11,355 bases of DNA from an uncultured Collinsella sp. (lineage in GTDB: Bacteria > Actinomycetota > Coriobacteriia > Coriobacteriales > Coriobacteriaceae): contig CAAFOA010000109.1 of NCBI GenBank assembly GCA_900764415.1, forward strand, positions 1-11,355, in the 5' to 3' direction. Position numbers and translations under genes: made by a program. Under the pieces are notes generated by a model, which searched no databases, was not told the origin of the DNA, and saw only the letters and a list, made by a program, of their open reading frames with translations. This document shows positions 1 to 11,355 of this stretch, piece after piece; the first letter of the stretch is position 1, and every line of letters begins with the position of its first letter.

Positions 1-37
1 CTCTTCGTCGGCAGCGTCAGATGTGTATAAGAGACAG
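1..37 (+). other. Untrimmed Nextera read-1 adapter
   Basis: Bases 5-37 match the complete 33-base Illumina Nextera transposase read-1 adapter as I know it, ending in the mosaic-end sequence AGATGTGTATAAGAGACAG. Bases 1-4 would be the end of an i5 index. This is library sequence, not genome; biological sequence starts at 38. Confidence 0.98.
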
Positions 38-2736: not shown

Positions 2737-2776
2737 ATCTCTTGACAAGCGCGGAGACGCCGCTGGTTGAGCATAA

Positions 2777-2882
2777 GTCAGCGAAAACGCCCCTAAGCGA
2801 GCAAGGTGACGTGAAAGAGGAGGGAAGCGTACTTCGGTACGCGACCGACGATTGAACGTCAGATTGCCGCTTAGGGGCGTTT
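2777..2882 (+). repeat. Structured intergenic element, copy A (possible ncRNA)
   Basis: A nested fold on the plus strand consists of these parts: a 15-bp outer stem (2785-2799 with 2868-2882); a bulged A at 2800; GCAA/TTGC (2801-2804 with 2864-2867); a GG/GA internal loop; TGACGT/ACGTCA (2807-2812 with 2856-2861); GA opposite GA (2813-2814, 2854-2855); and a terminal GCGTAC-TTCG-GTACGC hairpin (2827-2842). The C(UUCG)G tetraloop and the tandem GA pairs make sense only if the plus strand is the RNA. Copy B at 11217-11316 has the same plan with paired changes. The leader GTCAGCGA (2777-2784) is shared. I do not recognise the family. It could be a small RNA, a terminator-like repeat or a non-autonomous mobile unit. 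Confidence 0.7.
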
Positions 2883-2896
2883 GCAGCGTCGACTGG

Positions 2897-2920: not shown

Positions 2921-2942
2921 ACCAAAGGCGCAGCATCGAGCC

Positions 2943-2969
2943 GTTGCGCGGTTTAGAAAACCGCGCAAC
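2943..2969 (-). terminator. 12-bp hairpin just after the gntR stop
   Basis: The arms GTTGCGCGGTTT (2943-2954) and AAACCGCGCAAC (2958-2969) are perfect complements with a 3-base loop, 5 bases past the stop codon of the regulator at 2975-3694. The position fits a 3'-end hairpin. No run of T follows on the minus strand, so termination may need Rho, or the hairpin may only protect the message. Confidence 0.55.
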
Positions 2970-2974
2970 TAGAG

Positions 2975-3694
2975 CTACATGACCATAACGTAGCGGCTGC
3001 CCACGTAGTACTGCTTACCCATCAGGACCGGCTCGCCATTGGGACCGGTAAAGCTGGCACGCAGGTTGAGCAGCGGATCGTGCGGAGCAATGCCCAACTC
3101 GGCCGCCTGCTCGGTATTGGCACGAACGGCCTCGACCGTGCGGTAGCCAACCGAGACAATCGGCGTTCCGCCAACACGCTCGACCTCGGCAAAAATCGAC
3201 TTGTCCTCAAGATCGGCCGTCAACAGCTCACGGTAGGCGTCAAACGGCACAAAGATGTTCTCCTCAAAGATGGGCTCGCCGTCGGCTGTACGCACGCGCT
3301 TAATATGCAGCAGCAGCGCGTCCTTTTGCAGGCCAAAGAACTCCATCTCGTTTTGACGCGCCGGCACAATCTGGCGATCGACCACATGTGCGCCCGCCTT
3401 CATGCCGTTGTCGGCACACAGCGCGGTAAACGTCTGCAGCGTCGAGGCGTGGAACTGGCGGTTGATGTGCGGCGTGGAAACAAAGGTGCCACGGCCCTGC
3501 TGCTTAACCAGGTAGCCATCGGAGCACAGCTCCTCGACGGCGCGGCGCACCGTAATGCGGCTCACGTCGTACTGCTCGGCTAGCTCAAGCTCGGACGGAA
3601 TACGCTCCTTGGGTGCATAAACACCTTTTTCGATCGCATCCTTGATCTCGTCGTAAATCTGCTGGTAAAGCGGTGCATTTTTGGGCGCAGGCAT
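2975..3694 (-). CDS. GntR/HutC-family transcriptional regulator (candidate regulator of the PTS/deglycase operon)
   Basis: This complete 239-residue one-component regulator has a GntR winged helix-turn-helix at about 6-75 (APLYQQIYDEIKDAIE, RIPSELELAEQYDVSRITVRRA at 31-52, QQGRGTFV) and a UTRA domain from about 80 to the end (IKRVRTADGEPIFEENIFVPFDAY, MGKQYYVGSRYVM). HutC-type proteins bind short palindromes and release DNA on binding a small ligand, often a sugar phosphate. The ATG at 3694 has only a weak ribosome site (AAGAG). A TA-rich palindrome at 3732-3744, 37 bases upstream, also occurs in the PTS promoter and nearly so in the permease promoter, so I infer autoregulation and control of those genes. 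The neighbouring partial paralogue has the same recognition helix and could be the real binder instead. Confidence 0.93.
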   Translation of the reverse strand: MPAPKNAPLYQQIYDEIKDAIEKGVYAPKERIPSELELAEQYDVSRITVRRAVEELCSDGYLVKQQGRGTFVSTPHINRQFHASTLQTFTALCADNGMKAGAHVVDRQIVPARQNEMEFFGLQKDALLLHIKRVRTADGEPIFEENIFVPFDAYRELLTADLEDKSIFAEVERVGGTPIVSVGYRTVEAVRANTEQAAELGIAPHDPLLNLRASFTGPNGEPVLMGKQYYVGSRYVMVM

Positions 3695-5059: not shown

Positions 5060-5178
5060 AAGTGAGTAGACTTTACGCGGCCTGCAGAACACACCCAAAA
5101 CCGCCACCCCTGTGAACTGCGGTTTTACTAGAGCAGATGCACTTTGTGCTCGGCCCGCACCAAAAAGTCTACTCACTT
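5060..5178. repeat. Multi-branched inverted-repeat element (second type)
   Basis: A 15-bp perfect outer stem, AAGTGAGTAGACTTT (5060-5074) with 5164-5178, encloses further pairing. This includes GCGGCC (5077-5082) with GGCCCGC (5152-5158, one bulge), AAAACCGC/GCGGTTTT (5097-5104 with 5119-5126) and GAGCA/TGCTC (5131-5135 with 5147-5151). The 119 bases thus fold as a closing helix with two arms. They lie in the 354-bp non-coding gap between the HAD gene's 3' end and yitT. I do not recognise it. A structured RNA or a miniature mobile element are the options. Confidence 0.6.
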
Positions 5179-11109: not shown

Positions 11110-11147
11110 GACACAAATCGGTGAACGAGGAAATGATTCCCAGGAGT

Positions 11148-11187
11148 GTCCCCAAGTGCCGGCACAAAAGGAACGTCCCCAAGTGCC
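11148..11187. repeat. REP-like repeat (copy 3)
   Basis: GTCCCCAAGTGCC occurs twice (11148-11160 and 11175-11187). GTGCCGGCAC (11156-11165) is a perfect palindrome, and GGCAC/GTGCC can pair across the unit. It contains GAACGTCCCCAA (11171-11182), identical to 2719-2730. Confidence 0.7.
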
Positions 11188-11216: not shown

Positions 11217-11316
11217 GTCAGCGAGCGCCCGTCATTTGAGCCAAGGTGCCGTGAAATGAAAAGGCGCTGAACTTCTGGTCGCGCCTTTGAAATTGAACGG
11301 CAGATTGGCCAAATGC
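11217..11316 (+). repeat. Structured intergenic element, copy B (cut by adapter)
   Basis: It has the same plan as copy A: leader GTCAGCGA (11217-11224); outer CATTTG/CAAATG (11233-11238 with 11310-11315); bulged A at 11239; GCCAA/TTGGC (11240-11244 with 11305-11309); GG/GA loop; TGCCGT/ACGGCA (11247-11252 with 11297-11302); GA/GA; AAT/ATT; and an 8-bp inner stem AAAGGCGC/GCGCCTTT (11260-11267 with 11281-11288). Sequence differences from copy A fall on both sides of the helices. The 3' end is lost to the adapter. Confidence 0.65.
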
Positions 11317-11355
11317 CTGTCTCTTATACACATCTCCGAGCCCACGAGACTACGC
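11317..11355 (+). other. Untrimmed Nextera read-2 adapter
   Basis: Bases 11317-11350 match the reverse complement of the 34-base Nextera read-2 transposase adapter (beginning CTGTCTCTTATACACATCT). Bases 11351-11355 are probably the start of an i7 index. Not genomic. Confidence 0.98.

Follow-up and report, generated by a model that had tools for sequence, protein, structure and literature searches.

Gene-end rods: structured extragenic repeats of an apparently unrecorded family in the Coriobacteriales

Two structured elements, copies A and B, located in a stretch of 11,355 nt from an uncultured Collinsella sp. (the window, i.e., the whole stretch of DNA analyzed) were found to be members of one family, apparently unrecorded, whose plus-strand fold is kept by paired base changes. 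This repeat family extends over several families of one bacterial order and combines strong covariation with the lack of an Rfam match. The name 'gene-end rods' is offered for these structured extragenic repeats of the Coriobacteriales. About even weight is given to the reading that they represent a dispersed repeat that is REP/MITE-like and non-autonomous; a putative trans-acting factor would recognize its plus strand when folded.

Copies A and B within the window

The initial annotation had described two elements sharing one fold, and both were recovered together with the base changes and unpaired features quoted for them when the sequence was re-read and folded. Copy A (2777) and copy B (11217) start with the same GTCAGCGA. 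A folding energy of -64.6 kcal/mol was obtained for copy A (z -9.5; equalled by 0 of 200 shuffles) and of -43.5 kcal/mol for copy B (z -3.7; equalled by 2 of 200 shuffles). The features considered here are the following:

2765–2776, plus strand: left tail of copy A (GGTTGAGCATAA), common to some near-identical copies elsewhere
2777–2890, plus strand: rod hairpin of copy A, class 1 (GTCAGCGA ... GCAGCGTC); model core 2799–2869, 92.9 bits
2891–2924, plus strand: second hairpin, first unit (GGTCCGCCGTTC-GTTA-GAACGGCGGAACC)
2930–2969, plus strand: second unit of linker and hairpin (GCAGCATCGA followed by GTTGCGCGGTTT-AGA-AAACCGCGCAAC); hairpin 2943–2969
2975–3694, minus strand: GntR-type regulator gene (name read from the translation), its 3' end abutted by the copy A unit
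11217–11316, plus strand: rod hairpin of copy B, cut at the adapter (11317); model core 11239–11310, 61.8 bits

Both copies lie at the places given, but some details required correction. Copy A had been closed at 2882, but continues past this position, since GCAGCGTC (2883–2890) pairs imperfectly with GTCAGCGA and closes the stem. Copy B is not complete; it is followed from 11317 by an adapter and therefore lacks the outer right arm and the second hairpin. This adapter sequence, which we take to be of the Nextera type, is present at window positions 19–37 and 11317–11335, marking the contig as an untrimmed assembly product. Behind the rod of copy A, two short hairpins extend as far as the GntR-type gene, which is convergent and has its reversed stop codon at 2975–2977, the second linker and hairpin unit ending 5 nt short of that codon. 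The left tails of class 1 copies follow the weak consensus cAGGTY-N8-AAGTCAGCGA. Copy A features the GG/GA loop, the tandem GA/GA loops, the bulged A, and a UUCG loop. The C(UUCG)G tetraloop, already pointed out for copy A, did not hold as a trait of the family, TTCG being found in 8 of 100 copies by a simple script.

Other intergenic repeats adjoin both rods (2697–2736 and 11142–11187), consisting of TAGTCATTGGG..CCCAATGACTA arms and AGGAACGTCCCCAAGTGCC units, and these are present at the same locus in relatives. Between two genes, at 5060–5178, lies an inverted repeat that has AAGTGAGTAGACTTT ends and whose 34-nt arms match imperfectly (76% complementary).

Fold, covariation, and folding strand

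The rod is a hairpin of approximately 110 nt, to which class 1 adds a second short hairpin after a linker; near-identical units comprise approximately 150 nt. From the loop outward, a variable inner hairpin is followed by a tandem G-A, a G-C pair, a tandem G-A, A-U/A-U, and a further tandem G-A. Next comes a six-pair helix that is changed wholesale among copies (UGACGU/ACGUCA, UGCCGU/ACGGCA, UGGCGU/ACGCCA, and UGCCUU/AAGGCA), then a G-G/G-A loop, which also occurs in mirror image, and finally a long outer arm carrying either a bulged A or a tandem U-G/G-U wobble. Outermost, CAGCGA/GCAGCG is found in class 1 and nothing comparable in class 2. The class 1 linker, as deduced from a profile of 55 flanks, contains CGTC (GCAGCGTCG) and is missing from class 2.

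The proposal of conserved loops with covarying helices was borne out, covariation being strong against shuffle and slide controls, which took the place of R-scape. Two-sided changes were detected in all 18 modelled pairs and in 481 of 1899 cells (111 aligned copies, 107 distinct rows), and the covariation score amounted to 0.667 compared to 0.169 for shuffled and at most 0.081 for slid partners; the alignment of 107 distinct rows (A5) was made to the model and hence leans toward it, and the shuffle and sign tests count related copies as independent. In the set of 22 rows, two-sided changes affected 15 of the 18 pairs. The outer arm, which lies outside the model, pairs as well in the copy-finder set, with pairing percentages that are inflated, since the finder accepted a copy only if no fewer than 11 of the 22 outer-arm pairs and 5 of the 6 inner pairs were formed.

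The earlier choice of the plus strand as the folding strand was likewise supported, both by an excess of G-U over A-C and by stronger plus-strand folds. Among 184 distinct copies, 156 G-U compared to 67 A-C oppositions were counted in arm columns 1–28 outside the conserved loop and wobble columns; 86 copies were richer in G-U, 30 in A-C, and 68 were tied. In the tandem wobble columns of class 2 (50 copies), G-U accounted for 66–68% and A-C for 0%. Since all mismatches are scored alike by the finder, this asymmetry is not built in, and the excess on the arms indicates that selection for folding acts on the plus strand of the element. This strand also gave the better fold in 179 of the 184 copies with RNA parameters and in 168 with DNA parameters. 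As judged from the wobbles, RNA would be somewhat favoured over single-stranded DNA as the folding form.

Distribution, placement, and dispersal

Searching the window against Rfam 15 yielded no match at gathering score and five matches at E ≤ 10, none of which overlapped the copies; for six related loci, only tRNAs were matched. Support was therefore not obtained from the window for an already named motif such as Collinsella-1 (RF01700), which was presumably included in the library searched. The earlier suggestion of a possible undescribed RNA or mobile repeat of Coriobacteria stands in view of many further copies, strong covariation, and no Rfam match at gathering score. Likewise, no description of the family was found in the open-licence PMC literature.

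A nucleotide search with copy A recovered matches in 29 of 39 relatives at E ≤ 1, those outside the genus (E 0.09–0.72) being likely due to chance. A covariance model (R1) was built from 22 copies, complemented by a broader model (R2), and the search of relatives that had been recommended in the initial annotation returned further copies far above chance. Of 1017 candidates in the near-complete relative G015, 150 were scored, giving at least 47 R1 matches at E ≤ 0.1, of which 45 reached E ≤ 1e-4. Within the class, R1 matches at E ≤ 0.01 occurred in 87 of 246 genomes and 31 of 110 genera, several of the weakest among these 87 being doubtful and that of G205 not confirmed. At least 20 R1 matches were found in 22 of the 33 matching genus genomes listed. 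On rescoring, matches were kept by 8 genomes of the same family outside the genus and by 14 genomes of other families that had been picked for having matches; these other families are probably Eggerthellaceae and Atopobiaceae. In a phylum-wide draw, R2 matched 15 of 346 genomes at E ≤ 1e-4, 14 of the 15 belonging to the same order, and the exact 23-nt core was found in 63 stretches of named records, Collinsella in every case. The family also provides a covariance model with which these genomes can be annotated. Three loci in f13 genomes of the class (L307, L308, and L313) show related-looking rods beside tRNA genes with a similar inner GAGGAGCGAAGCG...GAGCGACGA module, and are possible distant relatives of the family.

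Neither a phage origin nor carriage by plasmids was retained. One exact 20-nt core had no match in viral contigs, nor had copy A in phage records. The sole plasmid record matched, NZ_OY725717.1 (899 kb; C. aerofaciens, labelled 'plasmid 6'), is probably a chromosomal piece, as rho, argS, and trpS are located on it.

The copies lie directly downstream of stop codons. In total, 95 copies were classified, 70 of them being antisense to both co-directional neighbouring genes, 16 convergent, 9 sense, and 0 divergent, in a sample of 111 copies from 100 chosen sources (the window and 99 loci, near-duplicate loci left out) for which genes were called with a home-made caller with known errors (e.g., L058 and L072, by stop codons). 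The 16 unclassified copies comprise 9 without a called neighbour, 5 duplicates, and 2 with a gene called across. For background, 400 kb of G015 contain 246 co-directional, 31 convergent, and 32 divergent gene pairs. An annotated record was examined over 150 kb, and all six copies found there, placed by eye, were antisense to the gene whose stop codon they adjoin. The distance from model end to stop codon is mostly approximately 14–31 nt in class 2 and approximately 52–61 nt in class 1, where the second hairpin lies between. At least one of the nine sense copies (L072) looks like a gene-call error, while a sense-oriented locus upstream of a small gene resembling a metal-binding domain is kept in three genomes (L077, L301, and L318). 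An orientation set by replication was rejected, since four copies of G015 (170394, 186564, 1655356, and 1664868), inspected by eye in a spot check, adjoin genes that run against the local gene majority, and all four follow the gene.

Regarding the genes concerned, whose names were read from translations except in the annotated record, copies were found in the rplK-rplA gap of two families (L310 and L321), after genes resembling cysS, sufB, and purC, and in the gap separating an ammonium transporter from a P-II gene. Some are placed inside operons (pheS-pheT and rplK-rplA), where relatives may lack them. A rod between pheS and pheT (read from translations) is present at nine loci of two families, and in G088, belonging to a third family, one lies 75 nt after pheS by coordinates. 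Among the best 30 of 55 pheS loci from 60 genomes, all covered by the model search and 26 with a parsed pheS end, 5 carry a rod beside pheS and close relatives are empty. One of the five has two rods in tandem (L343), and a half copy was also observed (L348). The far arm is able to pair with the stop codon and last codons of pheS at L181/L183, and at L194/L304, where the stop is TGA, it is altered to match; this pairing was either selected for, as an extension of the stem, or is left over from the way in which copies form. In G006, the pheS-pheT gap (L342) holds a different palindrome between AAGAGGTTT direct repeats at the same intercistronic site.

At the GntR locus, rod types differ among near relatives, 19 of 21 of which were readable (not L113 and L123), with L111 and L126 ending at contig ends. 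Halves (L116, L125, and L127), a chimera (L128), and nested remains (L129 and L130) were encountered. In L115 and L129, the repeats clustered 3' of the GntR gene adjoin the end of an apparent IS110-type transposase gene (read from DNA).

The copies L053 and L054 of G015 are 100% identical over 160 nt but differ in their flanks; L052 has just the rod in common with these two and carries a different second hairpin. Among 30 copies, 9 of 435 pairs reached at least 95% identity over at least 100 nt, so that near-identical copies at unrelated sites with sharp ends, as in MITEs, were observed. Eight filled/empty alignments showed no clean target duplication, and no parent transposon was found; in these alignments the right end lies at or near the stop codon and the left side is replaced as well. 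At the orthologous place in L161, the rod is replaced by what we read as a terminator-like hairpin.

Interpretation and relation to known systems

The dispersed-repeat reading is supported by the near-identical copies at unrelated loci, together with the covariation, the number of copies, the strand asymmetry, the orientation, the gain and loss beside pheS, and the chimeric, halved, and nested copies at the GntR locus. Regarding the earlier alternative of an RNA or a mobile repeat, the near-identical copies sustain the repeat half, whereas for the RNA half the plus strand turned out to be mostly antisense to its neighbours. A putative trans-acting factor would recognize the plus strand in its folded form, be it RNA or single-stranded DNA, and copies would persist where the strong fold lies opposite the mRNA, because the coding transcript would then be little disturbed. 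Persisting copies may provide the mRNA 3' end with a hairpin boundary, and the rod and second hairpin may be separate modules exchanged by recombination. Against the repeat reading speak the failure to find an enzyme, the lack of a clean target duplication in the eight alignments, and the lack of viral or phage matches. Moreover, same-site rods beside pheS in two families (in a third by coordinates) could reflect function at the site and not parasitism, and a function exerted by the antisense strand could explain the orientation bias. This raises the question of whether the antisense strands of gene ends are functional or merely tolerant landing sites.

Orientation and placement are best accounted for by a tentative alternative of low overall probability, which relies on putative transcription: plus RNA would arise from antisense or divergent transcription downstream, and the rod would stop it before the gene by pausing, cleavage, or protein binding. 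It would thereby serve as a one-way valve at gene ends, the weaker fold of the mRNA strand letting sense transcription pass. The antisense position of 70 of the 79 co-directional copies and the absence of all 95 classified copies from divergent gene pairs argue for it, as do the unit ending at or near the stop codon, a plus-strand fold stronger than the mRNA-strand fold at 9 of 9 pheS-pheT copies, the G-U preference and tandem U-G wobbles, which suit RNA, and the occurrence within operons. However, the information profile of the sequences preceding 52 class 1 copies showed no promoter-like motif, a U-tract follows the plus side in 1 of 183 copies, nine copies are sense, three of them at one conserved locus, and a copy is often absent in close relatives. 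That the family is an order-wide class of structured RNAs antisense to gene 3' ends, acting as one-way transcription valves, appears unlikely to us; if true, the elements, being stable chiefly in antisense RNA, would halt antisense transcription at the stop codon and let sense transcription through, even in ribosomal-protein and tRNA-synthetase operons.

A hairpin serving the mRNA 3' end on the gene strand, as a terminator or exonuclease block with the plus-strand bias as a by-product, is distinctly doubtful. It would agree with the position directly 3' of stop codons, with the terminator-like hairpin in place of the rod at L161, and with the mean T content of the eight positions after the stem on the gene-sense side (2.48 compared to 1.54 at random). 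Yet at least five T in these eight were counted for only 16 of 183 copies on the gene-sense side (plus side 1 of 183, random 4 of 183), leaving 167 without a U-tract; intrinsic terminators were rejected on this count. In addition, wobble selection acts on the opposite strand, and some copies lie inside operons, where termination would be harmful. An independent small-RNA gene family with many paralogues, to which the RNA-like motifs and the succession of rod and short hairpin in class 1 might point, is highly improbable given no shared promoter motif in 52 left flanks, no U-tract, and copies inside operons of housekeeping genes.

Among known systems, attC sites are placed at the 3' ends of cassette genes and bear the end boxes RYYYAAC ... 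GTTRRRY. It is the bottom strand of integron attC sites that folds, with structure conserved above sequence (PMC2727003). The family resembles them in having a folded strand whose structure is kept above sequence, and an attC-like site, where a tyrosine recombinase acts on single-stranded DNA that is folded at gene 3' ends, would suit the 3'-of-gene position, the antisense-strand fold with extrahelical bases, the tandem arrays, and the chimeras. This reading is nevertheless scarcely credible: the end boxes were present in 0 of 100 copies (shuffled mean 0.2), the integron integrase (TIGR02249) exceeded the cut-off in 0 of 14 genomes (sub-threshold in 14 of 14, as in 14 of 14 controls, none of which passes), and the element is gained and lost without an accompanying gene, no gene cassettes being seen.

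Candidate structured RNAs of the human microbiome found computationally include 250 palindromic ones out of 3161 (PMC8040213); the examples named there are wholly or mostly from Bacteroidetes, and the set could include this family. The Collinsella-1 RNA (RF01700) is listed for Actinobacteria of the human gut in PMC2864571; the window has no Rfam match at gathering score.

REP elements, as characterized in PMC3733652, are extragenic, palindromic, multi-copy sequences of 20–40 bp downstream of coding regions, those tagged with CGTC having no known transposase. Of 183 copies of the family, 12 have GTAG/CTAC no more than 10 nt from an end and 17 have CGTC at the rod end, with the end roughly placed by the script; CGTC also appears in the class 1 linker profile. 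The Y1 transposase domain (PF01797, Y1_Tnp) was detected in 14 of 24 genomes and not in the copy-bearing G235, G206, G224, and G103, so that dependence on RAYT, as for GTAG-type REPs, was discarded; RAYT is not needed by the family. The likeness to REPs lies in many extragenic palindromic copies 3' of genes, with 0 of 95 between divergent genes. In contrast to the 20–40 bp of REPs, the family consists of rods of approximately 110 nt with strand-specific covariation and antisense orientation, to which class 1 adds a second hairpin, and in our judgement such a strand-specific fold, combined with a strong antisense orientation at stop codons, seems unusual for repeats of the REP/MITE type.
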